In this document: positions 2,065 to 50,401 of the stretch, in pieces | Layout: each line of letters opens with the position of its first letter | How positions within the stretch are numbered: the stretch's first letter is position 1 | Origin: Streptomyces seoulensis | Lineage (GTDB): Bacteria; Actinomycetota; Actinomycetes; Streptomycetales; Streptomycetaceae | Direction: 5' to 3' | Assembly (NCBI RefSeq): GCF_022846655.1 | Contig: NZ_AP025667.1 | Location: 3,137,001-3,201,000 of the forward strand | Length of the DNA: 64,000 bases | Made by a program: the position numbers and the translations under genes | Notes under the pieces: generated by a model | Databases searched by the model: none | The model's input: the letters and a program-made list of their open reading frames with translations, nothing else | Told to the model about the DNA's origin: nothing

Positions 2065-3261
2065 TCAGTTCAGCGGGTCCAGCGTGAGATACGCCTGCTG
2101 CGGGTTGCCGTCGTTGACCAGCGACTCGTGGGCACCGACGTCGTCGAAGGCGAAGGCGTACGCCTTGCCGTCGGCCATCTGCGCGTGGATGGCCTTCGCG
2201 TACTGGTTGGTGACCCCGTCCTGGTAGAAACCGGCGTCCGAGCTGTCCGGCTGGTTGGGGTTGCTCAGCAGCGTCGAGCGGTTGTAACCGGCGCACAGGG
2301 TACGGGAGATGGGGCCGCGTACCTGGTCGTTGGGCGCGTCCAGCAGCTTGTGGCAGCCGAAGATGCTGGAGGCGTCCGGCTTCTGGAAGCTGGTGACGAC
2401 CGCGCCGGAGGAGTTGGTGAAGTTCATGACGTTGCCCGACACCCGGCCGAAGTACTTGGTGTTCGGCTGGTCGGTGAACGGCGTCACGGTCAGGGTCTGC
2501 GAGGAGTACTTCGACCAGACCCGGTTGACGTAGTCGTCCATCACGTTCGCGGGCAGCGCCCCCGTCTCCACGCCGTACAGCGGGGACAGGGCGCGCAGCA
2601 CGGTGCCGTCCGAGCGGGTCTGGACGAGGCCGGACCAGCCCGACTTGGCGCGCAGCGAGTTGAGGACGGCCGAGTAGCCGCCGGACTTGAGGTGCCCGGT
2701 GGTGGCGACCTGGCCGTTGCCCCGCTTCACGCCGACCGCGTAGGGCGCCGAGAACATGTCGACCTGGGTGCTGTTGAGCCAGAGCCCGGCGTCGTTGAGC
2801 GTGTACTCGGACCAACTGAACAGGATGTCCCGGTTCGGGTCCGACGGGTTCTGCACGGCCGGCTGCACCAGACCGCCGGTGGTCAGGCGGAAGTCCAGCT
2901 TGCGGCCGTAGGAGAAGTAGATCCGGCCGGAGAACTTCGGTATCCGGATCGTCGTCGACTGGCCCGGACCGGGCCCGGCGATAGCCGCGTCCGGCGCCGG
3001 GGTCGGCGGGTTGCCGCCCGCGGGCCAGGCGTGGAAGGTGCCGCCCGCGTCGGCCCAGCCCTGGCGTCCGGAGGACAACTGGGTGCCGAGGTCGTAGATG
3101 TACACCGGCTCGGAGCGGCCCGAGTTGTTGGTGATCTGGAGCGGGATCGTGTCCGGCACCGCGGCGACCGCCTGGCCGGCGGCGCCGAGGGTGAGGACCG
3201 AGCCGACCAGGGCGGCCGTGGCCGTGGCCGACAGTGCGGAACGAGCGATTCTTCGAGTCAA
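2065..3261 (-). CDS. glycoside hydrolase family 64 beta-1,3-glucanase, secreted
   Basis: Extracellular enzyme expected to cut beta-1,3-glucan (laminarin, fungal wall), releasing oligosaccharides. The 398-residue product has an N-terminal signal peptide (hydrophobic stretch ending AGQAVAA), then a GH64 domain over the rest. Recognisable family phrases are VYIYDLGTQLSSG, GRIYFSYG, QVDMFSAPYAVGV and the C-terminal AKAIHAQMADGKAYAFAFDD. I chose the TTG at 3261 because GGAGG lies 7 nt before it and the signal peptide then begins MTRRIARSALS; a longer frame to 3357 would start inside the promoter. No carbohydrate-binding module is present. The second GH64 gene at 32722 is a diverged paralogue. A perfect -35 box and a LacI-type palindrome lie upstream, so it is probably repressed until glucan is available. 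Confidence 0.9.
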   Translation of the reverse strand: MTRRIARSALSATATAALVGSVLTLGAAGQAVAAVPDTIPLQITNNSGRSEPVYIYDLGTQLSSGRQGWADAGGTFHAWPAGGNPPTPAPDAAIAGPGPGQSTTIRIPKFSGRIYFSYGRKLDFRLTTGGLVQPAVQNPSDPNRDILFSWSEYTLNDAGLWLNSTQVDMFSAPYAVGVKRGNGQVATTGHLKSGGYSAVLNSLRAKSGWSGLVQTRSDGTVLRALSPLYGVETGALPANVMDDYVNRVWSKYSSQTLTVTPFTDQPNTKYFGRVSGNVMNFTNSSGAVVTSFQKPDASSIFGCHKLLDAPNDQVRGPISRTLCAGYNRSTLLSNPNQPDSSDAGFYQDGVTNQYAKAIHAQMADGKAYAFAFDDVGAHESLVNDGNPQQAYLTLDPLN

Positions 3262-3315
3262 CTCTCCACCTCCGTGTGGGGTTCGGGGTGGTACGGATAC
3301 TGGTCCGGACCTTTT

Positions 3316-3329
3316 TGAGAGCGCTCTCA
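3316..3329. promoter_or_regulatory. LacI/CebR-type operator palindrome
   Basis: The 14-bp perfect palindrome TGAGAGCGCTCTCA lies 55 bp before the GH64 start and touches the predicted -10. The same 14 bp recur at 31629-31642 before the GH16-GH64 pair. It resembles the CebR/CelR operator of actinomycetes (TGGGAGCGCTCCCA), differing at two symmetric positions. No LacI-family gene is in the window, so the repressor is unidentified. Confidence 0.8.
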
Positions 3330-3357
3330 GCGTGCTTGTGTGTCGCGGACGTGTCAA
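3329..3357 (-). promoter_or_regulatory. predicted promoter of the GH64 gene
   Basis: On the minus strand a perfect TTGACA at 3357-3352 is followed after 17 nt by CACGCT at 3334-3329. The -10 is weak but abuts the operator palindrome, the arrangement expected for repression at the start site. Confidence 0.5.
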
Positions 3358-31419: not shown

Positions 31420-31755
31420 GTACGCGATCCTTCCTCGCTCACCGGAGGCCCAGCACCCTCGGCCGGGACTTAAGGGGAGGTTAATCGAGGATTAAACATC
31501 GCTGGACGAGGCTGTTGTTTGTTCAGATACCCGCTGCTCATGGGCGTTTTGACGGGTTGTCGGGGTGGTTGGAGCCGCTGGGGGCGCGGCGTATGGTCGG
31601 GGCTTGCCGGAGGTGCTCGCCGTTCGTGTGAGAGCGCTCTCAGACCCAAGGTCCGGTGTGTGCGGTGTGCTCCTTCGGCGCTCGTCCCTTCCCCCACGGT
31701 CGAGGGCGTGCCCCGTACGTCCCCCCCCCCACAGAGAACAGGGTGTGTTCTGGTC
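31420..31755. other. regulatory region before the GH16-GH64 pair
   Basis: A 336-bp stretch without a gene. It holds a LacI-type palindrome at 31629-31642, a possible -35 (TTGCCG, 31604-31609) and a run of ten C at 31721-31730 between operator and start codon. Confidence 0.6.
31629..31642. promoter_or_regulatory. LacI/CebR-type operator palindrome, second copy
   Basis: TGAGAGCGCTCTCA, identical to the site at 3316-3329, lies 113 bp before the GH16 start and about 19 bp after a possible -35. Identity over all 14 bases across 28 kb, in front of the same class of gene, argues for one repressor. Confidence 0.8.
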
Positions 31756-32628
31756 ATGGCTGGTCATCGTTTACGTCGCTGGTCCGTCCGCGGTCTCGTC
31801 TGCGGGAGCGCCGCCGCGCTCGCCGCGGGCGTGCTCATCAACACCACCGGACTCGGCGTCCACCGCGCCGACGCCGCCCCGGCGGCGCTCAGTTGGTCCG
31901 ACGACTTCGACGGCGCCGCGGGCAGCGCGCCCGACAGCTCCCGCTGGACCCTGGAGACGGGCGGCGGAGGCAACGGCAACCACGAGCTGCAGTACTACAC
32001 GAACAGCACCGACAACGCCGCCCTCGACGGCAACGGCAATCTGGTCATCACCGCCCGCAAGAACACCGACCCCAACCTGAACTGCTGGAACGGGCCCTGT
32101 CAGTTCACCTCCGCACGGCTGAACACCGCGAAGACCTTCACGCAGAAGTACGGCCGCTTCGAGGCCCGCATCAAGATCCCGCGCGGCCAGGGCATCTGGC
32201 CCGCCTTCTGGATGCTGGGCGACGACCTCGGCAGCACGGGCTGGCCGGGCAGCGGCGAGATCGACATCATGGAGAACGTCGGCAAGGAGCCCGCCACCGT
32301 CCACGGCACCATCCACGGTCCCGGTTACTCCGGCGCGGGCGGCCTCGGAGCCGCGTACAACCTCCCCGACGGCAGGCCGTTCGCCGACGACTTCCACACC
32401 TTCGCGGTCGACTGGAGCCCGTCCGGCATCACCTGGTCGGTCGACGGCCAGAACTACCAGACCCGCACCCCGGCCGACGTGGGCGGCAACAAGTGGGTCT
32501 ACGACCACCCCTTCTTCGTCATCCTCAACCTGGCGGTCGGCGGTGACTGGCCCGGCAGCCCCGACGCCGGTACGTCCTTCCCGCAGACGATGACCGTGGA
32601 CTACGTCCACGTCTCCGCCCAGAACTGA
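31756..32628 (+). CDS. glycoside hydrolase family 16 endo-beta-1,3-glucanase, secreted
   Basis: A 290-residue extracellular laminarinase-type enzyme. The N-terminus (GHRLRRWSVRGLVCGSAAAL to GVHRADA) is a signal peptide; the mature enzyme is a single GH16 jelly-roll domain. The catalytic motif is SGEIDIMENVG, with the two Glu acting as nucleophile and acid/base, and IWPAFWMLGDDLGS precedes it as in family beta-1,3-glucanases. FFVILNLAVGGDWPG is a further family block. No carbohydrate-binding module is attached, unlike many Streptomyces homologues. The ATG at 31756 lacks a strong ribosome-binding site. A GH64 gene follows 93 bp downstream, and together they should convert long beta-1,3-glucans to oligosaccharides. 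Confidence 0.92.
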   Translation: MAGHRLRRWSVRGLVCGSAAALAAGVLINTTGLGVHRADAAPAALSWSDDFDGAAGSAPDSSRWTLETGGGGNGNHELQYYTNSTDNAALDGNGNLVITARKNTDPNLNCWNGPCQFTSARLNTAKTFTQKYGRFEARIKIPRGQGIWPAFWMLGDDLGSTGWPGSGEIDIMENVGKEPATVHGTIHGPGYSGAGGLGAAYNLPDGRPFADDFHTFAVDWSPSGITWSVDGQNYQTRTPADVGGNKWVYDHPFFVILNLAVGGDWPGSPDAGTSFPQTMTVDYVHVSAQN

Positions 32629-32659: not shown

Positions 32660-32721
32660 GCATCTTCCCGTGTTGTCCCGGCTCCGGCCGGGTGCGTCCC
32701 CCACTGCAAGGAGTTCACCGC

Positions 32722-33933
32722 ATGTCGCCTCGTCACCAGCGCAACCTGACCCGCCGTAAGCTGATGTTCGCCCTGGGCGGCGCGGCCGTGGCCATCCCCG
32801 CGGCGGCCGCCATCGCCCCCTTCGCGCTCGCCGACCAGCCGGGTGACAGCGGCGGCAACAAGACCCGCGCGGCGTCGGGTTCGCTTCCGGTGACCGTCGT
32901 CAACAACAGCGGCTCGTTCGACAACGGGTCCGTGAACGTCTACGTGGTCGGCAACGTCGACGGCAAGCAGGTCCGCCTCAAGCAGGACGGCACCCTCGCG
33001 CCCATCGCGGTCTCCGACAACGGCGCCGACGGCTTCACCGACTACGCGATACCGCTGGCGGGCAGCGGCGAGACCAAGCTGTCCCTGCCGTTCATGTCGG
33101 GCCGTATCTACGTCTCGCTCGGCGACAAGCTGAAGATGAAGGCCGTCACCGACGGCAACGGCAACGCGGCCCTGCAGTTCCCGGCCGGCTGGGTGGAGTC
33201 CGACCCGAACTTCGGTGTGCTGCACGACTGCGCGGAGTTCACGTACAACGCCTCCGGCATGTTCTGCAACACCACGATGGTCGACATGTTCAGCGTCCCG
33301 ATGAGCATCCGCCTCACCGGTGAGAAGGACCAGACGACCGGCAGCATCCGCGACGGCGGCCGCGCGGCCGCGTTCGCCGCGGTCAAGGAGGTCGCGGAGT
33401 TCTCCAAGCTCGTCGTGGACGACAAGCGGATCATCGCGCCCGGCCACGGCCTGGACGCGGGCCTGTTCGCCAAGGACTACTTCGCCCCGTACATCGACGA
33501 GGTGTGGTCCACCTTCACCGGCAAGGACCTGAAGATCACCACGAACGCCGGCACGTTCACCGGCCGGGTCCGCGGCGACCGCTTCACCTTCGACGGCCCG
33601 GCCTCGGTGTCCTTCGCCAAGCCCTCCACCCGTGACGTCCTCTTCTGCGACGGCAACCTCGCCGCCCCGAACGACGGCACCACCGGCCCCGTGGCGGCCG
33701 TCCTCGGCGCGGGCTTCAACCGCTCGACGCTGCTCACCGACACGGCCCAGCCGAGCACCGACCCGGCCGCCTTCTACCAGGGCGAGCTGACCAACCACTA
33801 CTCCAAGGCCATCCACACGGCCACCAAGGACGGCAAGGCGTACGGCTTCGCCTTCGACGACGTCGCCGACTTCGCCTCCTTCATCCAGGACACGGCCCCC
33901 TCGGGCTTCACCCTGACGCTGACGTCGTTCTGA
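32722..33933 (+). CDS. glycoside hydrolase family 64 protein, Tat-exported
   Basis: A 403-residue secreted glucanase. The signal NLTRRKLMFALGGAAVAIPA carries the twin-arginine motif, so export as a folded protein is likely. GH64 phrases include LPVTVVNNSG, GRIYVSLGDKLKMK, TTMVDMFSVPMSIRLTGE, GAGFNRSTLL and the C-terminal HYSKAIHTATKDGKAYGFAF, and it is a diverged paralogue of the 2065 gene. The ATG at 32722 has AAGGAG upstream. It lies 93 bp after GH16 with no operator of its own, so it is probably controlled by the 31629 site. A strong terminator follows. Confidence 0.9.
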   Translation: MSPRHQRNLTRRKLMFALGGAAVAIPAAAAIAPFALADQPGDSGGNKTRAASGSLPVTVVNNSGSFDNGSVNVYVVGNVDGKQVRLKQDGTLAPIAVSDNGADGFTDYAIPLAGSGETKLSLPFMSGRIYVSLGDKLKMKAVTDGNGNAALQFPAGWVESDPNFGVLHDCAEFTYNASGMFCNTTMVDMFSVPMSIRLTGEKDQTTGSIRDGGRAAAFAAVKEVAEFSKLVVDDKRIIAPGHGLDAGLFAKDYFAPYIDEVWSTFTGKDLKITTNAGTFTGRVRGDRFTFDGPASVSFAKPSTRDVLFCDGNLAAPNDGTTGPVAAVLGAGFNRSTLLTDTAQPSTDPAAFYQGELTNHYSKAIHTATKDGKAYGFAFDDVADFASFIQDTAPSGFTLTLTSF

Positions 33934-40109: not shown

Positions 40110-41135
40110 TCACGGCTGTGGCCAGCGGTCCGCCTCGCGGGGTGCCGGCTCGTCCGTCTCGAAGGCGGTGGCCGGGCCGGTGGGGTCGAGGATCTCGTCG
40201 CCGAACAGGTCCTGCAGCCAGTTCGTCTGGTAGACGGTGTCGAGGTAGCGCTCGCCGAGGTCCGGCGCGATGGCCACCGCCGTCAGGTCGCGGGTGTCGT
40301 GGCGGGCCAGCCAGTTCGCCGCGCCGCTGACCACCGTGCCCGTCGACCCGCCGAACAGGAAACCCCGCCGGGCCATCCGGTGGCAGGCGCGGATGGTCTC
40401 CGCCTCCTCCACCCGGATGACCTCGTCGACGTAGGACTCGTCGAGCAGCGGCGGCCGCATGCTCATGCCGAGGCCGGGGATCATCCGGCGGCCCGGTTCC
40501 CCGCCGAACGCGACCGAGCCCACGCTGTCCACCGCGACGATCCGCACCGGCCGGTGCCATTCGCGGAAGTAGCGGGCGCACCCCATGAGCGTCCCCGCGG
40601 TGCCCGTGCCGACGAACAGCACGTCCAGGCTGGGGAACTGACGGGCGATCTGCTGCGCGGTCGTGCGGTAGTGGGCCTGCCAGTTGCCGGGGTTGGTGTA
40701 CTGACTGAGCCACACGTACCGGTCGTCGGAGGCGCACAGCGAGCGGACGTACTCGATCCGCGTGCCCAGGAACCCGCCGTTCTCGTCCAGGTCGGCCACG
40801 ATGTGCACCTGGCTGCCGAGGGCCTCCATCAGCAGCCGGGTCGACAGGTTGCAGCGCGAGTCCGTCACGCACAGGAACTGGTAGCCCTTGCTCGCGGCGA
40901 TCATGCTGAGCGCCACGCCGAGATTCCCGGACGAGGACTCGACGATGACGGAGTCCGGCTTGAGGATGCCCTCCCGCTCGGCGCCCTCCACCATCTCGTT
41001 CGCGGCCTTCAGCTTGATGGAGCCGGCGAAGTTGAAGCCCTCGCACTTCAGGTAGAGGGGACATCCGAGGATCGACTTGAGGTCGACGAAGAGATGGCCT
41101 TCGTTGAAGTCATGGGGAGCGGATATGACGGGCAC
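40110..41135 (-). CDS. sbnA: SbnA-like 2,3-diaminopropionate biosynthesis enzyme (PLP-dependent)
   Basis: A 341-residue cysteine-synthase-fold enzyme. In staphyloferrin B biosynthesis SbnA joins O-phospho-L-serine and glutamate to give N-(1-amino-1-carboxy-2-ethyl)-glutamate, the precursor of L-Dap. The PLP Lys is in NFAGSIKLKAANEMV, the Asn/Ser loop is VIVESSSGNLGVALS, the phosphate-binding Gly loop is FVGTGTAGTLMGCARYF and the C-terminal Ser is in LFGGSTGTVVSGAANW. The sequence VWLSQYTNPGNWQAHYRTTA matches SbnA rather than CysK/CysM. The GTG at 41135 has AGGAGG upstream. It is the last gene of the five-gene operon, 35 bp after sbnB. Confidence 0.9.
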   Translation of the reverse strand: MPVISAPHDFNEGHLFVDLKSILGCPLYLKCEGFNFAGSIKLKAANEMVEGAEREGILKPDSVIVESSSGNLGVALSMIAASKGYQFLCVTDSRCNLSTRLLMEALGSQVHIVADLDENGGFLGTRIEYVRSLCASDDRYVWLSQYTNPGNWQAHYRTTAQQIARQFPSLDVLFVGTGTAGTLMGCARYFREWHRPVRIVAVDSVGSVAFGGEPGRRMIPGLGMSMRPPLLDESYVDEVIRVEEAETIRACHRMARRGFLFGGSTGTVVSGAANWLARHDTRDLTAVAIAPDLGERYLDTVYQTNWLQDLFGDEILDPTGPATAFETDEPAPREADRWPQP

Positions 41136-41170
41136 GATGGGCCTCCTGGTGCCGGGGAAGGGCAGCGCTG

Positions 41171-42241
41171 TCAGCCGTACCGGCGCAGGTCGTGGAAGAA
41201 GTTGTCGATGACGCCGAGGTTTCCCGCCCTGGCCGTCTCGTCGTGGACGTACTTGCCGACGGCGAGGTCGAGGACGCCCAGCCCGAAGGGCGAGAAGACG
41301 ATCGGCCGGTCGGGCGGTGGAGCGGAGCGGCCGAGCATCACGTCGTAGAGCGTGCCGTTGAGGAAGTCCCGGTTCCCGGTGCGCTGTTCGACCAGGTGCG
41401 GCGAGGTGTCGGCCTTGAGGCAGTGCTCCACGTCGTCGACGAAGTTCGCCGATGCCATGAGGACTTCCGGGGCCAGGTCGCGCAGTGAGACGTGCAGGAC
41501 CAGGGGGTTGTGGGAGAACAGGGAGGCGTCGGTGACGTGGGGAGCTCCCGCGACGGTGGCGAAGACGACCAGGTCGCTGGAGCGGATGAGGTCCGCGGCG
41601 GTGTCGTGCACCGTGACCTCGGCGCTCGTCCCGCTCTGCCGCAGGTAGTCGCGGAACCCGGCGGCGCTGTCCGCGGCCGTGTCGTGCACGCCGACCGTCT
41701 CGAACTCCCAGCCGGTGCCCGCGAGGAAGGTGTGGATGTAGCGGGCGATCAGCCCGGTGCCGAAGAACCCGACGCGGGTCGGGCGCGGCCGGGAGCGGCT
41801 GAACCAGTCGGCGGCCAGCGCGGCGGACGCCGCCGTCCTGGTCGCGCTGATGATGGAGCTCTCCAGACAGGCGAACGGGTAGCCGGTCTCGGGGTCGTTG
41901 AGGATCAGGACCGCCGAGGCGCGGGGGAGCCCGGAGCGCACGTTGTCCGGGAAGCTGGAGATCCACTTGACGCCGTCGACCCCCATGGAGCCGCCGATCG
42001 ACGCCGGCAGCGCGATGATCCGCGAGCTGGGCCGGTCGGGGAACCGCAGGAAGTAGGACGGCGGGTTGACCGAGTCACCGGCGCCGTGCAACCGGTAGGT
42101 CGCCTCGACCAGTTCCACGATCTCCTTCTCGCGCCCGGCGAGAGCCTTGTGCACCTGCTCACCGGAGATCACCGCGAACGACGGCGACGGAGCCGCCTCG
42201 GGTGCGGCCGGCTGTGCGGGGGTGGGCAACAGATCGGTCAT
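41171..42241 (-). CDS. sbnB: SbnB-like 2,3-diaminopropionate biosynthesis enzyme (ornithine cyclodeaminase fold)
   Basis: A 356-residue NAD-dependent dehydrogenase of the ornithine cyclodeaminase/mu-crystallin family. SbnB oxidises the SbnA product to release L-2,3-diaminopropionate and 2-oxoglutarate. The cofactor fold is at TRVGFFGTGLIARYIHTFLA; MGVDGVKWISSFPDNV and LNDPETGYPFACLESSIISA are typical of the SbnB branch. The start overlaps the stop of the oxygenase gene (ATGA, 4 bp), so they are coupled. With SbnA it makes a complete two-enzyme Dap route, and the released 2-oxoglutarate is also the co-substrate of the neighbouring oxygenase. Confidence 0.92.
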   Translation of the reverse strand: MTDLLPTPAQPAAPEAAPSPSFAVISGEQVHKALAGREKEIVELVEATYRLHGAGDSVNPPSYFLRFPDRPSSRIIALPASIGGSMGVDGVKWISSFPDNVRSGLPRASAVLILNDPETGYPFACLESSIISATRTAASAALAADWFSRSRPRPTRVGFFGTGLIARYIHTFLAGTGWEFETVGVHDTAADSAAGFRDYLRQSGTSAEVTVHDTAADLIRSSDLVVFATVAGAPHVTDASLFSHNPLVLHVSLRDLAPEVLMASANFVDDVEHCLKADTSPHLVEQRTGNRDFLNGTLYDVMLGRSAPPPDRPIVFSPFGLGVLDLAVGKYVHDETARAGNLGVIDNFFHDLRRYG

Positions 42242-43242
42242 CGCTCGCTCGCCTCCGAGTTCGTCTCCCCGGCGGCCAGGCGGCGCGGATCGGCCATGCC
42301 GACCAGCACCTGCCTGTCCCCGGTGTAGGGCTCCCTGCTGTGCGCGGTCCGGACGTTGTCGACGAGCAGCAGGTCACCGGCCTGCCACGGCTCGCGCCTG
42401 GTGTGCTTCTCGTACGTCGCGTTGAGCAGCTCGACGACGTCCTCCCCGATCGGAGTGCCGTCACCGAAGCGGGTGTTGAACGGCAGACCGTCCGCGCCGT
42501 AGATGTCCACGAGGTACTCGCGCACCTCCGGGGCGAGCGTCCACTCGTTGAGGAAGGCGATCTGGTTGAACCAGCACGCCTCACCCGTGACGGGGTGCCG
42601 GACCACGGCCGGGCGGCGCTGGGTGGTCCGCAGGGAACCGTCCGGCTGCCAGGCGAAGTCGATGCCGTGCGCCCGGCAGTAGCTCTCGACCCCGGCGCGG
42701 TCGGCGGTCCCGAACGACTCCTCCAGGGACGCCCCGATCTCGTCGTTGTAGGACCGGGTGAGCATCCAGCCCTCCTTCTCGAAGCGCGTCCGCACCTCGG
42801 GGGGCAGCTCCCGGAGCACCTCCGCCGCGTCGGCCACCGCCGTCGCCCCGCCGTCCTCGGGCGCCGTCAGGCAGGCGAACAGCATCAGCGTGGGCGGGTC
42901 CTGCGTGTAACTCAGCTCGTGGTGCATGCACATGGGCTGGTTGGCCGGCCAGGTCGTGGAGACGTACAGCCCCGCACCGAAGGTCTCGCGCGGTGCGAAG
43001 GACTCCCGCTCCGTCATCAGGCCGCCGGTCAGCCGGGAGAAGACGGCACCGACCTGCTCCGGGTCGCGCAGCCCCAGGCCCCGGACCAGCAGGGAGCCGT
43101 GCTCGGTGACCTGGGCGCGCAGCACGTCGCGGTACTGGGCCGCCCAGCCCGGTACATCGGCCGGGGCGTCGATACGGGCCACCGGCGGTCTGCCCGGCCG
43201 CAGCTCCACGTCGAGCGGGGCTGCCAGGGATGAGGTCGACAT
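42238..43242 (-). CDS. TauD/TfdA-type Fe(II)/2-oxoglutarate oxygenase, SyrP-like
   Basis: A 334-residue non-haem iron oxygenase. The facial triad is the HxE in QPMCMHHELSYTQDP (Glu instead of Asp, as in SyrP and clavaminate synthase) and the distal His in VRTAHSREPYTGDRQV; the Arg of the latter motif should bind 2-oxoglutarate. SyrP hydroxylates aspartate on a carrier protein; this enzyme may hydroxylate Dap, free or tethered to a T domain, at its beta position. It sits between the synthetase and sbnB: 44 bp after the former, overlapping the latter by 4 bp. A free amino acid substrate or another oxidation cannot be excluded. Confidence 0.85.
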   Translation of the reverse strand: MSTSSLAAPLDVELRPGRPPVARIDAPADVPGWAAQYRDVLRAQVTEHGSLLVRGLGLRDPEQVGAVFSRLTGGLMTERESFAPRETFGAGLYVSTTWPANQPMCMHHELSYTQDPPTLMLFACLTAPEDGGATAVADAAEVLRELPPEVRTRFEKEGWMLTRSYNDEIGASLEESFGTADRAGVESYCRAHGIDFAWQPDGSLRTTQRRPAVVRHPVTGEACWFNQIAFLNEWTLAPEVREYLVDIYGADGLPFNTRFGDGTPIGEDVVELLNATYEKHTRREPWQAGDLLLVDNVRTAHSREPYTGDRQVLVGMADPRRLAAGETNSEASER

Positions 43243-43286
43243 CTCGGTTTTCCTTTCGGTCGCCCGTCATCGGGCTGGGGCAGGGG

Positions 43287-46200
43287 TCAGGAGGAGGCCA
43301 GCGGCTCGGCGGCGGCCAGCACGGCCTTCGCCGCCTCGGTGGGGCGCAGGCGCGGGAAGTAGTGCCCGCCGTCGGGGAGTTCGTGCAGGTCCACGTGGTC
43401 GGCCAGCAGCAGCCAGTCCCCGTGGGAGCCGGTGTACCCGGCCGTGTACGGGTCGTCGGCAGCCACCACCACCGACACCGGGGCCGACAGCCGCGCCGCC
43501 GGCGGGTTCTCCAGCGCGTCGCGGAAGTACCGGTGGGCGGACAGGCAGTCGTGCCGGTAGGCGGCTCCCACGCGCTCGGAGTGCCGCGCGGTCAGCTCCG
43601 CCAGTTCGACGTAGCCGCCCTCCTCGGCCAGCCGCGCGGCGATCTCGGCGTCGTCGCGGACCGACAGCGCCTCCGCGGCGGCCCGTCGCTCGGCGGCCGT
43701 GCCGAGCAGTTGGGCGCCGACGAACAGCCGCGTCACCTCGACCCCGCGCTCGGCGAGCCTGCGGGCCGTCTCCACGGCCGGCGCCGCGCCCGACGAGTGG
43801 CCCCACAGCATGACCCGGGTCAGACCACGCGCGGTGATCTCGGCCGCGACCCGCTCCGCCACCTCGGCGATCGAGCCGAACGCTTCCTGCCGTCCGGCGA
43901 GGTCATGACCGGGCAGCTCGACCGCGAGCACCGACATCCCGCCGCCCGCCAACGCGCTCGCCATCGGCTGGAAGTTGACCGCGTTGCCGCCCGCGTACGG
44001 GAAGCACACGAGCGCGCACTCCGGCGTCCCGTCCGCCTCCGCCAGCGGCTGGAGCAGCTCCCCGCTCTGCTCGGCCGCACCCTCCAGGAGGGCCGCCAGG
44101 TCGGCGAGTACCGGGTTGCGGGTGATGTCTTTGAGGGACACCGCGCGGTCGAGCGCGATCGTCAGCTTCACCGCCGTCAGGGAGGTGCCGCCGGAGTCGA
44201 AGAAGTGGTCCCTGCGGCCGATCCGCTCCTCGGGCACCCCCAGCAGCACCGCCCAGGCGGCCGCCAGCCGCCGCTCGGCCGGGGTACGCGGCTCCCGGTC
44301 CCCGCCGTCGGCCGGGGTCGCGGGCGCGCTCCGCCCGGCCAGCACGGTGAGCGCCTTGCGGTCGGTCTTGCCGTTGGCCGTCAGCGGCAGCGCCTGGTGC
44401 CAGTGGAAGGCCGCCGGGACCATGTACGCCGGGAGAGCCGCGCCCAGCGCGTCGCGCAGTTCCTCCACCGGCAACTCGCGCCCGGCGTAGAAGGCGACCA
44501 ACTGAGGCCCCTGTCCGCTTCGTTCGGCCACGACCACCGCGCCGTCCCGCACCCCCGGAACCCGCAGCAGCGTGTTCTCGATCTCGCCGATCTCGATGCG
44601 GAAGCCCCGGATCTTGACCTGGTTGTCCCGGCGCCCCAGGAACTCCAGCTTGCCGCCGGCGTGCCAGCGCCCCCAGTCACCGCCCAGGTAGAGCCGCTCG
44701 CCCGGCCGGTAGGGGTCCTCCAGGTACGCCTCACGGGTCCGCTCGGGGTCGTTGACGTAGCCCCGGCCCACACAGACCCCGGAGAAGGCGATCAGCCCCG
44801 GCGCGCCCAGCGGCACCAGCTCCAGCCGCTCGTCCACGACCAGGACGCGCACGTTGTTCACGGCACGTCCCAGCAGGACGCGGTCGCACACCCCGTCGAT
44901 GATCTCGTGGTTGGTGTCGTCCGAAGTCTCGGTCAGGCCATAGGCGTTGACCAGCTTGATGCCGGGCTGGACGGCGAACCAGCGCTGGACCAGCTCCGGT
45001 TTGAGCGCCTCACCGGTCACGGACACGAAGCGCAGGTCCGGGAAGTCGCGCGGGTGCCGCTCCAGGTAGGAGACCAGGACCTCCAGATACGAGGGCACGA
45101 GCTGGGTCACCCCGACCCGGCCGCCCACGAGCGTGTCGGCGAACCGCTCCACGTCCATGAGCACGTCCTGCTCCACCAGCAGCGTCCGTCCGCCCACCAG
45201 CAGCGCGGAGATCAACTGCCACAGCGAGATGTCGAAGCACTGCGGTGCCGTCTGCGCCACCACACCGCCCTCGCCGACACCCAGGTCGTCGATCTTGGCG
45301 AAGAGATGGTTGAGCATCCCCGCGTGCTCGCACATCGCCCCCTTCGGCTCGCCGGTGGAGCCGGAGGTGAAGTAGATGTAGGCGAGCTGACCGGGGTCCA
45401 CCGCCACACCGAGGTCGTCGTCCGCGTGGCCTTCGGCGTACGCGTCCTCGACGAGCAGCCTCTCGGCCCCGGGAACGTCGGCCAGCGCCTGGTCGAGTGT
45501 GTCGGTACTGCCCGACTCGGTCAGCACCAGCCGGCACCCGGCCCGCGAGAGGGTGGCCGCGATGCGGCCGGGCGGGAAGTGCGGCTCGATCGGCAGGTAG
45601 ACGCCGCCCGCCTTGAACACGGCCAGCGTCGCGGCCAGCCAGTCGAGATCGCGCTCGGTGACCACGGCCACCACGCCCTCGCGCTCCAGCCCGCGTGCCA
45701 GCAGGGCCCGCGCCAGCCGGTTGGCCCGGCGGTCGAGTTCGCCGTACGTCCACTGCCGGCCGCCGTGCACCGCCGCCACCGCGTCCGGGTGCTCGCGTAC
45801 GCGCCGCTCGAACAGTTCGTGCGCCCGCAAGTCCGGCAGCTCCCGCGCGGGACCGGCGAGCCCCTCCAACTGCTCGTGCCGCTCCTCGGCCGACAGCAGG
45901 CGCGCCGCCGTGTGCCCGGCGTCCGGGTCGGCCGCCATCAGCTCCAGGGCCCGCACGTGGTAGCCCGCGATCCGGGCCGCGCTCGCGGTGTCCAGGACGT
46001 CGGTCCGGTACCGCAGGACCAGCCGTCCGTCCTCGGAGCCGTGCACGTGCAGGACACGGTCACCGGTCAGCGGGCTCAAGGGACCGAAGACCACCTCGAA
46101 CGGCGGCTCAGTGAGACCCAGTTCGCGTCGCAGCCCGTCCAGCGGGACGTCCCGGTGCGCCATCACCTCGGCCGCCGCGCGGTGAGCCGTCGACACCAGC

Positions 46201-46511
46201 TCGCGCCAGGTGCCGGGGGAGACGGCGAGGCGGCACGGCAGGGGCTCGCCGTCCCCGTCGGCGGCGTACCCCGTCACCACGTCCTGCTCACCGCAGAGGG
46301 CGGACAGCACCTTGGCGTGCGCCGCCAGGAGCACGGCGTCGGCCGGTACTTCCAGCCGTCGCGCCAGTTCGCCCACGGCCCGGGGCACCGGCACCTCGTG
46401 CTCCGCCGTACCGGGCGCCGGCACCTCGGCCCACCGCGGTACCGCGGTGAGTCCACCGGCGGTGAGCACACCGCTCCAGAACTCCCGGTCCGCCTGCACA
46501 CGCGTTCCCAT
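43287..46511 (-). CDS. nonribosomal peptide synthetase: truncated C, A, T, TE
   Basis: A 1074-residue single-module synthetase. Residues 1-210 look like the C-terminal half of a condensation domain; no HHxxxDG motif is present, so it cannot condense normally. The A domain spans about 235-715: A3 YFTSGSTGEPKGA, A4 FDISLWQL, A5 NAYGLTETSDD, A8 GRRDNQVKIRGFRIEIGEIE, A10 NGKTDRKAL. By eye the specificity residues read D-I-W-Q-S-T-A-D-D-K; two Asp at the bottom of the pocket fit a basic side chain, and with sbnA/sbnB beside it Dap is the likely substrate. The T domain has FFDSGGTSLTAVKL at about 770. The TE (FPYAGG, GHSSGA at about 902, DGGHYF) resembles GrsT-type editing thioesterases. The start ATG has GAGGGAG upstream and lies 11 bp after the Pls-like gene. 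Confidence 0.92.
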   Translation of the reverse strand: MGTRVQADREFWSGVLTAGGLTAVPRWAEVPAPGTAEHEVPVPRAVGELARRLEVPADAVLLAAHAKVLSALCGEQDVVTGYAADGDGEPLPCRLAVSPGTWRELVSTAHRAAAEVMAHRDVPLDGLRRELGLTEPPFEVVFGPLSPLTGDRVLHVHGSEDGRLVLRYRTDVLDTASAARIAGYHVRALELMAADPDAGHTAARLLSAEERHEQLEGLAGPARELPDLRAHELFERRVREHPDAVAAVHGGRQWTYGELDRRANRLARALLARGLEREGVVAVVTERDLDWLAATLAVFKAGGVYLPIEPHFPPGRIAATLSRAGCRLVLTESGSTDTLDQALADVPGAERLLVEDAYAEGHADDDLGVAVDPGQLAYIYFTSGSTGEPKGAMCEHAGMLNHLFAKIDDLGVGEGGVVAQTAPQCFDISLWQLISALLVGGRTLLVEQDVLMDVERFADTLVGGRVGVTQLVPSYLEVLVSYLERHPRDFPDLRFVSVTGEALKPELVQRWFAVQPGIKLVNAYGLTETSDDTNHEIIDGVCDRVLLGRAVNNVRVLVVDERLELVPLGAPGLIAFSGVCVGRGYVNDPERTREAYLEDPYRPGERLYLGGDWGRWHAGGKLEFLGRRDNQVKIRGFRIEIGEIENTLLRVPGVRDGAVVVAERSGQGPQLVAFYAGRELPVEELRDALGAALPAYMVPAAFHWHQALPLTANGKTDRKALTVLAGRSAPATPADGGDREPRTPAERRLAAAWAVLLGVPEERIGRRDHFFDSGGTSLTAVKLTIALDRAVSLKDITRNPVLADLAALLEGAAEQSGELLQPLAEADGTPECALVCFPYAGGNAVNFQPMASALAGGGMSVLAVELPGHDLAGRQEAFGSIAEVAERVAAEITARGLTRVMLWGHSSGAAPAVETARRLAERGVEVTRLFVGAQLLGTAAERRAAAEALSVRDDAEIAARLAEEGGYVELAELTARHSERVGAAYRHDCLSAHRYFRDALENPPAARLSAPVSVVVAADDPYTAGYTGSHGDWLLLADHVDLHELPDGGHYFPRLRPTEAAKAVLAAAEPLASS

Positions 46512-46522
46512 CGAATGCTCCC

Positions 46523-49117
46523 TCAACTCACGGACGCCGCAGGGGCGCTGTCCACGGACGGTGGGGTCCTGCGGCCGGTACCGACGGGCCGCACCACGGC
46601 CTCCGGCATCTCCACGGCGGGGTTGCCGCCCCAGCGCGCGTGCGCGGGGACCTCCTCGCCCTTCATGAGGAAGGAGTCGGGCGCCAGCCGCGCGCCCTCG
46701 CCCATCGTCACGCCGTAGTGCACGTGCGAGCCGACGCCCAGGGTGCAGCCGGCGCCGAGCGTGGTGTCGTCGGACTTGAACGTGCCGTCCTCCTGCGAGT
46801 GGCACTGGACCTTGCTGCCGGCGTTCAGGGTGCAGTCGTCGCCGATGGTGGCGAGCGTGCGGTCCGTCATGTAGCAGCCGTCGTCGAACACCCTGCGGCC
46901 GATGCGGACACCCATCAGGCGCCAGACCAGGGCCTTGAAGGGGGTTCCGTTGAAGATGTTCAGGTGCCGGTCCGGCACCTTCCACAGACGCTCCTGCGCC
47001 CAGAAGGCGGGGTCGTAGATGGAGCACAGCATGGGGCGCAGCCGGCGGAAGCGGGTGAGGCAGCGCTCCAGCAGCACGTAGTAGAGGGTGGTCAGGGCCA
47101 GGGTCAGCGCCATGTAGGTGGCGATCACGACGTGACCGAGCACGCCGTACAGCTCCACGGTGGCCAGGGCCAGGATCGTGAGCGCGAGGACGTGCAGCCA
47201 GCGCACGAACAGCATGAAGGCCATCGAGCGCAGGTTGAAACGATTCTTCGCGGAGAGGCTCCGGTTCAGCGCGTCCCCGGTCCGCAGGCCGTCGAACCGG
47301 GCGTCGCGCTCCACCGACCTCGGGATCTCGAAGCTCGGTGAACCGAGCAGCCCGACCCCCTCACGGATCTCCCCGTCGAGCGGCACCATCACCTTCGTCG
47401 CCAGCAGGCAGTTCTCGCCCGTCCGGCCGCCGATGGGATAGGCGATGTTGTTGCCCAGGAAGTTGCGCGCCCCGATCGTCGCCCGCGACACCCGGAACGA
47501 CGTGGCCGAGTAGTCCGCGTTGATCACCGAGAGCCCGTCGGCCACCATCGTGCCGCTGCCCACCGAGACCAGCAGCGGAGTCTCGTGCTGCAGCTCGGTG
47601 CCGAAGTTGGACCCGGTCTGCTCGACGTGGGAGAGGTCGTACCCGATGCCGCGCAGGTAGTTCACGATGTACGAGCTGTCCCCGAAGAGCCAGGCGAAGA
47701 ACTTGATGTTCGTCGTCCGCGCCGTCGCCCGGTGCACCGCGTACCGGAACCCGTAGAGCGGGAACACCCGGTCCGCCGGGACCACGAGGCTCAGCAGGCG
47801 CGGCAGGGTGCGCAGGAGGATCAGGCCCAGGACGATGAAGCCGACGAACAGCACCAGGGAGAGGACCACCGCGTCGGTCAACAGCTCCCGCAGTGGCAGA
47901 GCCGTCTCGGGGTCGAGCCGTCTGCGGACCGCGGGCACCGCGTTGAACAGCATGTACAGACCACCCACGCCCAGCGGGATGTACAGCAGGAACAACTGGA
48001 GCAGCGAGGCGAGCCCGAACCAGGCCCGGCGGGCGGTGCCGCACCGGGCCGGCGCGACCCGCAGGTAGTCGACATCGGTCGGCTGCGCGGGGGACCCGTG
48101 CCAGTGCTCGCCGTCCGGGACGGCCTGGCCGCGGTGCATCGACGAGGAGTGCCCGAGCTGGGCGCCGTCACCCATCGACGTGTCGATGTCCAGGATGGTC
48201 TTCTCCCCGATGTACACGTCCCGGCCGATGCTGATCCGGCCGGTCTGGATACGCCCGGCGTGCGCCCGGTAGCCGAGGAAGAACGTGTCCTTGCGGATCA
48301 CCGTGCCCGAGCCGATCGTCAGCAGGTCGGTGCAGACGGGGACGGAGTGGGAGAGGATCGTGACCCCCTTGCCGATCCGCGCGCCCAGTGCCCGCAGATA
48401 CAGCACGTACAGGGGATTGCCGATGAAGAGGATCATCGGATTGGCGTGCAGCAGGGCCTTGACGACCCAGAAGCGCAGGTAGGCAAGGCCCCAGACCGGG
48501 AATTCACCGGCCTTCCAGCGCCCCACCAGCACCCATTTGGCGACGACCGGGAAGGCGCACAGCGCCACGAATCCGATACCGCCGAAGACCAGGGACCGCA
48601 GATATACGTCGAGCTCGCCCGAGCCGCCTGCCACCCATTCATAACCGCTCGCGGTGACGAAACCGGCCACCAGCGAATATCCCAGGAAGATCAGCAACTG
48701 TGCCGTGCCGCAAAGGGTGTGCGCGAGCGTGCTCGCGCGAGTGACCGGTTCCGGCGGCGACACCGGAGCGGCGGGCGCCAGGGCGTCCGGGGAGCCGGCG
48801 GAAGCGGGGGCGGATTCGGCGAGAGCGGCCGCGAGGGCGCTGATCGTGGGGTACCGGTAGATGTCCTTCATGGACGGGGAGGGCAGATCCTCCCGCTTCC
48901 GGACCCGTGCGCAGAACTGCGCCATGACCAGGGAGTTGGCACCGAGGCCGTCGAAGAAGTGCGCATCGGCCGCAACGCTGTCCACGCCCATGACGTCGGC
49001 CAGCGCATCCGCCAGCCGCGTTCCGGTATCCACCACCGCCTGGACCGGACCGGGCCGGCCGACGACGGTTTTCGCGTCCGTTCCTTCTATATGGACGTCC
49101 GAGGACTGTTCCACCAT
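46523..49117 (-). CDS. carrier-domain membrane protein with three left-handed beta-helix domains (Pls/PosA C-terminal type)
   Basis: An 864-residue protein and the first gene of the operon. Residues 30-100 are a carrier domain with the phosphopantetheine Ser in HFFDGLGANSLVMAQF (Ser62). Six membrane helices follow in pairs near 137-206, 367-450 and 640-700. Between and after them lie three hexapeptide-repeat domains: about 254-350 (IGSGTVIRKDTFFLG, IGRDVYIGEKTILDIDTSMG), 475-600 and 735-840 (TLGAGCTLGVGSHVHYGV). This is the layout of the T-TM-C1-C2-C3 part of epsilon-poly-L-lysine synthetase, but the A domain that should precede the carrier is missing. The A domain of the next gene may load it in trans. 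AGGAG precedes the ATG. It is probably a membrane assembly platform that polymerises or transfers the carrier-bound amino acid. Confidence 0.85.
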   Translation of the reverse strand: MVEQSSDVHIEGTDAKTVVGRPGPVQAVVDTGTRLADALADVMGVDSVAADAHFFDGLGANSLVMAQFCARVRKREDLPSPSMKDIYRYPTISALAAALAESAPASAGSPDALAPAAPVSPPEPVTRASTLAHTLCGTAQLLIFLGYSLVAGFVTASGYEWVAGGSGELDVYLRSLVFGGIGFVALCAFPVVAKWVLVGRWKAGEFPVWGLAYLRFWVVKALLHANPMILFIGNPLYVLYLRALGARIGKGVTILSHSVPVCTDLLTIGSGTVIRKDTFFLGYRAHAGRIQTGRISIGRDVYIGEKTILDIDTSMGDGAQLGHSSSMHRGQAVPDGEHWHGSPAQPTDVDYLRVAPARCGTARRAWFGLASLLQLFLLYIPLGVGGLYMLFNAVPAVRRRLDPETALPLRELLTDAVVLSLVLFVGFIVLGLILLRTLPRLLSLVVPADRVFPLYGFRYAVHRATARTTNIKFFAWLFGDSSYIVNYLRGIGYDLSHVEQTGSNFGTELQHETPLLVSVGSGTMVADGLSVINADYSATSFRVSRATIGARNFLGNNIAYPIGGRTGENCLLATKVMVPLDGEIREGVGLLGSPSFEIPRSVERDARFDGLRTGDALNRSLSAKNRFNLRSMAFMLFVRWLHVLALTILALATVELYGVLGHVVIATYMALTLALTTLYYVLLERCLTRFRRLRPMLCSIYDPAFWAQERLWKVPDRHLNIFNGTPFKALVWRLMGVRIGRRVFDDGCYMTDRTLATIGDDCTLNAGSKVQCHSQEDGTFKSDDTTLGAGCTLGVGSHVHYGVTMGEGARLAPDSFLMKGEEVPAHARWGGNPAVEMPEAVVRPVGTGRRTPPSVDSAPAASVS

Positions 49118-49441
49118 GTGATCTCCTGGAGATCGTCTGGATCGCTTGCTCGGCCACGTGCTCTTCTCTGAATCACGAACTGCCGCTTCAGTTTCGGCCC
49201 GCCTTCGTCAGGCTGCCACTTCGAATCGATCACCCCGCGAGCCGGAAAATGCCCGGCGGGCCCGTGATTTCTGGGCAGCCGCAGCCGTACGGCACCTCAG
49301 GGATCACCTGAATGGCCGACCTTCCGGCTCCGACGCCGGTGGCGGACCGCCGTACGGTGTCCGATGCTGGACTGGCCGGATTCGCCCCGCTACGCACCGC
49401 CCTGCCTGCGTTTCCCCGCAGGCCGCTCACCGGGAGAGGCC
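49118..49441. other. 324-bp divergent intergenic region before the NRPS operon
   Basis: It should contain the promoters of the minus-strand peptide synthetase operon and of the Dyp peroxidase. The palindrome GATCTCC-T-GGAGATC at 49120-49134 includes the ribosome-binding site of the Pls-like gene. No iron box or other known operator is obvious, and no gene is supported. Confidence 0.5.
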
Positions 49442-50401
49442 ATGGATCAGACCGCCGCCGCCAAGCACGCCCTGAAGACCGAGCCGCAGTACATCGACGC
49501 GCCGATGACCGCGGCGGCCGCCTTCCTGGTGCTGACCATCAACAGCGGCGAGGAAGCCATGGACAAGGCGCGGTCCGTGGTGGCGAGCATCGAGGACCTG
49601 GTCAAGGACATCAAGATCCAGGTGAACACCGGCGTGTTCACCTGCAATCTCGGTATCTCGCACCACGCCTGGGAACCGCTGACGCGCAAACCGCTGCCGA
49701 AGGAACTCAAGCCCTTCCAGGAGATCCGCGGCGCCCAGCACACCGCGGTCGCCACGGAGGGTGACCTCCTCTACCACATTCGTGCGGATTCGGTCGATCT
49801 CGTCGTCGAGTTCGAGAAGATCCTCCTCGAGGCGTTCGGTGATTCCGTGACCGCCGTGGACGACGTCACCGGATTCCGGTACTACAACGGCCGCGATCTC
49901 CTGGAATTCGTGGACGGCACCGCCAACCCGATCGGCCTCTCCCTGCCGGCCTCCACCCTGGTCGGCGAGGAGGACCCGGCGTACGAGGGCGGGAGCTACG
50001 TGGTCATCCAGAAGTACCTGCACGACCTCAAGGACTGGCGGGCCCAGACCACCGAGACGCAGGAACAGGTCATCGGGCGCACCAAGTTCGACAACATCGA
50101 GCTGCCCGACGCGACCGAGGGGCAGAAGTCGCACAAGACCCTGTGCACCATCCAGGACGCCGAGGGCGAGCACGACATCCTCCGCGACAACATGCCGTTC
50201 GCCACGCCCGGCAAGGGCGAGTACGGCACCTACTTCATCGGCTACTCCCGCCACCTGTGGGTCACCGAGAAGATGCTGGAGCGCATGTTCATCGGCGACC
50301 CGCCGCCCCTGCACGACCGCATCCTCGACTACTCGCGGGCGGTCACCGGGGTCACCTTCTTCTGTCCCGCCCGGAAGTTCCTGGTCGACCTCGCGGACTG
50401 A
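49442..50401 (+). CDS. Dyp-type haem peroxidase
   Basis: A 319-residue dye-decolourising peroxidase of the YfeX-like (cytoplasmic) branch, without a signal peptide. The family motif GXXDG appears as LLEFVDGTANPIGLS, with the catalytic Asp; the distal Arg is probably in VIGRTKFDN, and proximal His candidates lie in the C-terminal half, e.g. GYSRHLWVTEKMLE. DDVTGFRYYNGRDLLE is also characteristic. The ATG at 49442 has GGGAGAGG upstream. Dyp enzymes oxidise phenols, dyes or porphyrins with peroxide. No encapsulin gene or cargo-loading tail is seen. It is divergent from the NRPS operon; no functional link is implied. Confidence 0.88.
   Translation: MDQTAAAKHALKTEPQYIDAPMTAAAAFLVLTINSGEEAMDKARSVVASIEDLVKDIKIQVNTGVFTCNLGISHHAWEPLTRKPLPKELKPFQEIRGAQHTAVATEGDLLYHIRADSVDLVVEFEKILLEAFGDSVTAVDDVTGFRYYNGRDLLEFVDGTANPIGLSLPASTLVGEEDPAYEGGSYVVIQKYLHDLKDWRAQTTETQEQVIGRTKFDNIELPDATEGQKSHKTLCTIQDAEGEHDILRDNMPFATPGKGEYGTYFIGYSRHLWVTEKMLERMFIGDPPPLHDRILDYSRAVTGVTFFCPARKFLVDLAD

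Follow-up and report, generated by a model that had tools for sequence, protein, structure and literature searches.

Gene content and conservation of the operon

We analyzed a five-gene operon of Streptomyces seoulensis, located on the minus strand (40110-49117) of a 64,000-nucleotide window, i.e., the whole stretch of DNA under study (contig NZ_AP025667.1). From its 5′ end, the operon encodes a membrane polymerase half, a free-standing synthetase with adenylation (A), carrier (T), and thioesterase (TE) domains, an oxygenase, and the enzymes SbnB and SbnA for biosynthesis of L-2,3-diaminopropionate (Dap). Gene calls confirmed both the order and the intergenic gaps (11, 44, −4, and 35 bp) given in the original prediction, an earlier annotation of the same DNA. 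The individual features are as follows:

46523-49117, minus strand: membrane polymerase half, 864 aa, with an N-terminal peptide, a T domain, and a TIGR02353 domain (family searches)
49088-49117, minus strand: peptide MVEQSSDVHI at the N-terminus, which may dock the separate A domain (identity across loci)
48821-49018, minus strand: T (carrier) domain, residues 34-99 of the membrane protein (Pfam)
46616-48715, minus strand: TIGR02353 polymerase domain, residues 135-834 (815 bits)
43287-46511, minus strand: free-standing synthetase, 1074 aa, with a putative condensation-domain remnant, A, T, and TE domains (Pfam, gene calls)
44367-45812, minus strand: A domain, residues 234-715, pocket D I W Q S T A D D (Pfam and alignment)
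44085-44270, minus strand: T domain of the synthetase, residues 748-809, Ser777 (Pfam and alignment)
43290-44012, minus strand: TE domain, type II-like, Ser906/Asp1020/His1050 (Pfam, alignment, similarity)
42238-43242, minus strand: AmbC/SyrP/DdaC-like Fe(II)/2-oxoglutarate oxygenase of the TauD fold family, 334 aa (PF02668, 158 bits)
41171-42241, minus strand: sbnB, Dap biosynthesis, 356 aa (TIGR03944)
40110-41135, minus strand: sbnA, Dap biosynthesis, 341 aa, GTG start (TIGR03945)

Ten aligned membrane proteins served as the query for a scan of named genomes, which yielded 521 relatives; the best 80 were kept, all titled Streptomyces. All five genes were found in the same order and on the same strand at 77 of these 80 closest loci, a figure that describes close relatives, and the remaining three (L069, L091, L094) are cut off by a contig edge. 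The five-gene set is thus a real conserved unit and not a chance arrangement, and the operon is ancient within Streptomyces. Median gaps across the 77 complete loci were 11, 42, −4, and 37 bp. Among 32 further unfused loci, hand-picked from lists and therefore non-random, 25 showed all five functions (one, L221, as a fusion). In S. seoulensis, the operon genes have a GC content at third codon positions of 0.92-0.95 and no TTA codon was found in any of the five, while the 6.54-Mb single-contig genome holds one TIGR02353 match, i.e., the window protein.

Both Dap enzymes exceeded the curated equivalog cut-offs of their families (SbnB, 412 bits vs 326.9; SbnA, 389.2 bits vs 349.95), so that the SbnA/SbnB pathway originally proposed stands. 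The same holds for the oxygenase, which had been described as SyrP-like: beyond its TauD match, the HxE...H and Arg sites that bind the metal and 2-oxoglutarate (H108, E109, H301, R303, R310) are intact in 78-79 of 79 sequences, and the motif MCMHHELS, which holds the first of these His residues, occurs in 73 of 78, the other five being unmatched by the pattern. Some sources name close relatives of this protein AmbC. For the synthetase, previously read as a truncated condensation domain followed by A, T, and TE, Pfam recovered the last three. The truncated condensation domain is our reading, since the N-terminal ~225 aa gave no Pfam match at E 0.001 and we take them to be the C-terminal part of such a domain. 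The Ser of the synthetase T domain is intact in 79 of 81 sequences (80 loci and the window), the rest being gaps.

Separate parentages of the membrane and adenylation halves

The membrane protein matched TIGR02353 over the entire model (positions 1-695 of 695) at 815 bits, against a cut-off of 423.1. As in Pls and PosA, a carrier domain with its Ser precedes the membrane domain, and this residue (Ser62) is present in 80 of 81 sequences, the other row being a gap. By contrast, Pls and PosA carry a fused A domain, and no AMP-binding domain was matched by Pfam in the 864-aa protein. The same appears to hold for its relatives, i.e., the best 120 of 4026 in the protein database are 840-946 aa long, which leaves no room for a fused A domain.

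A tree of 58 TIGR02353 domains separated two deep halves, with the branching order inside the window's half only partly resolved. One half comprises a fused group that by its A domain is nearest the solved epsilon-polylysine synthetase (7wew, 665 bits), along with fused proteins of other families. The other half comprises, grouped at 100/100 against the Pls-type half, the unfused proteins and a single fused clade (L215-L220), whose members are 49-52% identical to the window protein. We inspected the neighbors of five members of this clade (L215, L216, L217, L218, L220). In L215, an aspartate kinase and a diaminobutyrate (Dab) transaminase lie directly upstream of the fused gene, and in L220 a Dab transaminase lies directly downstream, a context corresponding to the pldA-dat-ask arrangement described for gamma-poly-L-Dab synthetase (PMC8117764). 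Of the neighbors tested, those of L216 and L217 were more distant histidine kinases and that of L218 was an ABC permease, so these three loci carry no weight either way. On a Skermanella plasmid, ectB is annotated immediately before a fused relative.

The A domains tell of another origin. Seventeen operon A domains formed one clade (96/87), nested in a group of 23 (100/100) with six A domains found beside Dap-type genes in other clusters; those of both fused groups join in another part of the tree (100/98, with a long-branch warning on that joining). The membrane and A halves thus have separate parentages, which makes the operon a chimera and not a cut gene. The original prediction had the A domain split from the polymerizing membrane part: a membrane half of the Pls/PosA family was indeed found, while a simple split of a Pls-type gene was rejected, as the A domain belongs to another lineage. 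Activation by a separate A domain, also part of that prediction, is supported, with loading probably in trans.

Two Pseudonocardia plasmids carry related arrangements. One, from Pseudonocardia alni (L235:4664-9945), encodes a fused protein, 47% identical across its membrane part, with an oxygenase gene immediately behind it whose product is 54% like that of the window. This fused protein has a degenerate ATP-binding motif in its A domain and three T-domain motifs in a row, and may represent an intermediate. The other encodes a separate AMP-binding frame, a membrane protein, an oxygenase, and a cysteine-synthase-like gene.

The membrane protein could alternatively transfer a single Dap or oxidized Dap to an envelope or lipid acceptor, without forming a polymer, much as in Dlt systems. 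These share a layout of separate A domain, carrier, and membrane acyltransferase, and DltA was among the family matches of the window A domain. Hexapeptide acyltransferase families also match the membrane protein, and no exporter or resistance gene was conserved beside the operon in the flank comparison. However, the full-length TIGR02353 match, and the grouping of this protein with fused proteins in the published context of a poly-Dab synthetase, argue for a polymerase and make such single transfer unlikely.

What the A domain would activate may be judged from its pocket, for which we take the positions to follow GrsA numbering. The pocket DIWQSTADD is identical in 81 of 81 sequences, with Asp at positions 330 and 331 throughout, as would be expected for a basic side chain; the non-basic pocket that would have spoken against the original prediction is not what the sequence suggests. 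DIWQSTADD recurs in L023 and L024, two cassettes with sbnB and sbnA and no membrane gene in the fetched stretch. Furthermore, each of the ten best A-domain matches (≥53% identity, the window among them) lies near an SbnA-like enzyme in the fetched stretch, nine at ≥62% and one (L021) at 32%. Dap is thus the probable substrate. Activation of another amino acid, with Dap used elsewhere, would be consistent with the fact that we found no solved or assayed A domain with an identical pocket, and one signature-listing paper mentions Dap codes, with these letters absent from its main text. Against this stand the invariance of the pocket, its two acidic residues, and its recurrence in the two cassettes without membrane gene, and we consider such a substrate very improbable. 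Other Dap-type clusters show variant pockets (DIWQRLADD in L001 and L021, DIWQATCDD in L003, DIWELTADD in L002). By annotation, the related Dap-like A domains of L001, L003, and L021 lie beside genes for a PLP enzyme, a kinase, and a lyase or argininosuccinate-lyase-like protein, which may provide a second route to Dap.

Trans loading has a described counterpart in capreomycin biosynthesis, where the separate A domain CmnA-A1 loads L-Dap onto the T domain of CmnI, and an N-terminal extension of CmnI is needed for the contact (PMC12400406). In the window, the peptide MVEQSSDVHI precedes a variable linker at the N-terminus of the membrane protein. At least five of its ten residues are identical in 53 of 76 loci, compared to a mean of 3.7 and a maximum of 36 for shuffled references, which we regard as a mere lead for docking.

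Proposed on-carrier oxidation and a proposed Dap polymerase

Two gene fusions bear on where the oxygenase acts. L221 encodes a single 2301-aa protein in which a membrane part (42-876) precedes A (971-1740), T (1840-1947), and oxygenase (1953-2280); sbnB and sbnA follow. In L023 an A-T protein carries the oxygenase at its end. Since one protein unites them in L221, the polymerase, A, T, and oxygenase would act together, and since the oxygenase is fused right behind a T domain in both L221 and L023, the fusions point indirectly to a carrier-bound residue, rather than free Dap, as its substrate. The oxidation behind the hydroxy-Dap originally envisioned would thus take place on the carrier. DdaC offers a precedent, as it oxidizes a Dap derivative carried on DdaD (PMC12451424).

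The TE domain helps in weighing two further explanations. Its Ser triad is present in 78 of 81 sequences, the other three rows being gaps from two cut loci and one early-stopping frame (L046), and its matches include type II thioesterases and the TEs of ObiF1 and SulM. However, in 17 of the 25 further operon loci the synthetase, at 695-842 aa, leaves no room for a TE (no match extends past residue 817), and the membrane gene is kept. The TE would therefore be dispensable, and editing would fit better than release. This bears on the possibility that A, T, oxygenase, and TE release a small oxidized Dap amino acid or antimetabolite, with the membrane protein as anchor or exporter. The intact triad is consistent with such a product, as are the cassettes without membrane gene in other clusters (L023, L024) and the role of AmbC in an antimetabolite pathway (PMC4357302). 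The loci that keep the membrane gene with no room for a TE, and the fusion of membrane half, A, T, and oxygenase in one genome, speak against it, and we consider it quite unlikely.

A dapdiamide-like epoxide or a sulfazecin-like beta-lactam, made on the synthetase, appears more remote still. Dapdiamide biosynthesis does pair a Dap-derivative carrier with a carrier-dependent oxygenase (DdaD and DdaC, PMC12451424), and the TE matches include those of ObiF1 and SulM. Yet, the TEs of ObiF and SulM use a Cys nucleophile (PMC11298585), and Ser906 occupies this position in 78 of 78 readable rows, i.e., the Cys of a sulfazecin-type enzyme was not found. Among the window proteins scanned, which do not cover every open reading frame, there was no ATP-grasp, sulfotransferase, or fumarate-ligase family and no further AMP-ligase, and flanks are hardly shared between loci. 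The dapdiamide cluster comprises fumarate-activating, amidating, and ATP-grasp enzymes. Both the dapdiamide and monobactam pathways were rejected given the Ser nucleophile and these missing partner families.

Overall, we favor, with somewhat better than even confidence, a self-contained, trans-loaded Dap polymerase with an on-carrier oxygenase, whose product would be a short, cationic, partly oxidized Dap isopeptide. Specifically, SbnA and SbnB would make Dap, which the free-standing A domain would activate and load both onto its own T domain and, in trans, onto that of the membrane protein. The oxygenase would modify the carrier-bound residue, and the TIGR02353 membrane domain would link residues by isopeptide bonds and deliver a short cationic oligomer, some units of which may be oxidized, by hydroxylation (+16) or desaturation (−2). 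Stalled carriers would be cleared by the TE in those loci that have one. A more ambitious version, which we hold as plausible at somewhat less than an even chance, is that a polymerase of poly-Dab lineage has shed its A domain and is trans-loaded instead by a Dap-specific module of a nonribosomal peptide synthetase (NRPS), joined by a carrier oxygenase, to make a new polymer across much of Streptomyces; its oxidized units would be hydroxylated, desaturated, or aldehyde-bearing.

Several points weigh against a Dap polymerase. By its tree position, the operon A domain lies among ordinary NRPS modules near Dap genes and outside the lineage of polymer synthetases, and a TE is unusual in known polymer synthetases. 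Five of the 32 hand-picked unfused loci (L147, L148, L231, L232, L233) have no Dap genes in the fetched stretch, and in two others (L227:5023-11078 and L228:3223-9539) the membrane protein and oxygenase stand beside a gene of acyl-CoA-ligase type, again with no Dap genes in an 18-kb stretch; the ligase of L227 is of the exosortase-A-associated type (TIGR03098, 760 bits vs a cut-off of 592). L019 is without oxygenase and sbnB. In addition, a free beta-amine beside a new beta-hydroxyl would be unstable and should lose ammonia, which leaves the timing and type of oxidation uncertain: either the beta-nitrogen would already be acylated, as in an isopeptide, or the oxygenase would desaturate. Finally, AlphaFold modeled the membrane protein poorly in both of two predictions (mean predicted local distance difference test scores of 37.7 and 44.9), which at most hint at three pairs of helices with short regular strands after each pair, an arrangement described for PosA (PMC10522769).

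Distribution, surroundings, and relation to known systems

Relatives of the membrane protein at E ≤1e-150 were found in 91 of 246 Streptomyces genomes drawn, at least five of which (G076, G112, G166, G181, G257) have the fused form. At the same threshold, 12 of 101 genomes sampled from the family had one, representing 4 of 17 genera. In a draw of 100 genomes across the phylum, six exceeded the family cut-off, and only the window had an unfused-size frame for a full-length match. Relatives without Dap genes nearby were also seen on plasmids (L241, L245, L240): on those of Streptomyces sp. CdTB01 and Arthrobacter FW305-BF8 they lie amid metal-transport or metal-resistance genes, and on pTC1 the relative shares a stretch with a DUF305 gene.

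Upstream of the operon lies one further feature:

49188-49220, minus strand: promoter-like element AGTGGCA-N21-ACTGA, recurrent at fixed spacing

AGTGGCA was found in 62 of 77 upstream regions (76 loci and the window), and in 54 of these 62 it is followed 21 bases later by ACTG or by ACTA/ACTC. No chance match to the window element was expected. A whole-genome search returned no second match, and a reversed control pattern also matched once, so this figure alone says little. The element looks like a promoter. No sigma-70 promoter was found, and an RNA element was rejected, its sole Rfam match scoring under its gathering score.

Beyond the five genes, the most widespread flanking family was found in only 13 of 78 locus sets (77 loci and the window), all downstream, and a larger cluster was rejected on this basis. 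An AidB-like gene (537 aa) behind several TE-less operons, whose Pfam assignment was read for L136, is taken as local synteny. In the window, a divergent DyP-type peroxidase gene (49364-50401) lies directly upstream of the operon, and this family is near the operon in just two other loci. The window also holds two glycoside hydrolase family 64 beta-1,3-glucanase genes (2065-3357 and 32692-33933), the second adjoining a glycoside hydrolase family 16 gene (31519-32628).

The closest described systems share parts of this set. PldA is a TIGR02353 polymerase from the same half of the tree, represented by the L215-L220 proteins about 50% identical to the window protein, and like the operon the PldA-type loci L215 and L220 have a short diamino acid supplied by neighboring genes; they differ in a fused A domain of another lineage and in having neither oxygenase nor TE. 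Pls and PosA share the carrier and TIGR02353 membrane domain, with the A domain fused, and the Pls-type group and Acinetobacter proteins are ~25% identical to the window membrane protein. The poly-L-Dap synthetase of S. albulus PD-1 is alike in its Dap monomer, an SbnA/SbnB-like pair, and a TIGR02353-type membrane part, but as described it is a single 4,338-bp gene with a fused A domain, Dap genes that do not adjoin it, and no oxygenase (PMC4668381). DdaC and AmbC are likewise 2-oxoglutarate oxygenases of NRPS pathways, and the DdaC substrate is a carrier-bound Dap derivative, whereas the DdaC/DdaD and AMB pathways have no membrane polymerase and other partner genes. In capreomycin biosynthesis, CmnA-A1 trans-loads L-Dap onto a carrier lacking its own A domain (PMC12400406), but a conventional condensation domain is involved and no polymer is made.

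Known Dap polymers include a comb-like form and beta-poly-Dap (PMC9606270). In Streptomyces scabies proteomics, an SbnB homologue whose gene lies close to those for an SbnA homologue and an NRPS was more abundant with potato tuber (PMC11479980). We found no description of the five-gene set in the open-access literature, which within that scope upholds the view that no described system has this exact gene set, nor did we find a published Dap A-domain code for comparison.

To our knowledge, the layout suggested here, i.e., a polymerase that a recruited A domain loads in trans, together with an oxygenase acting on the carrier, is new. Known homopolymer synthetases are single proteins, whereas here activation and polymerization would lie on separate proteins, and monomer, carrier, and polymerase would therefore be individually assayable and exchangeable. 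If this explanation is correct, the on-carrier oxygenase would be the first example of tailoring known for this class of polymers, within the open-access literature. Given that relatives of the membrane protein occur in more than a third of the Streptomyces genomes drawn, a common product of these bacteria may have been overlooked.

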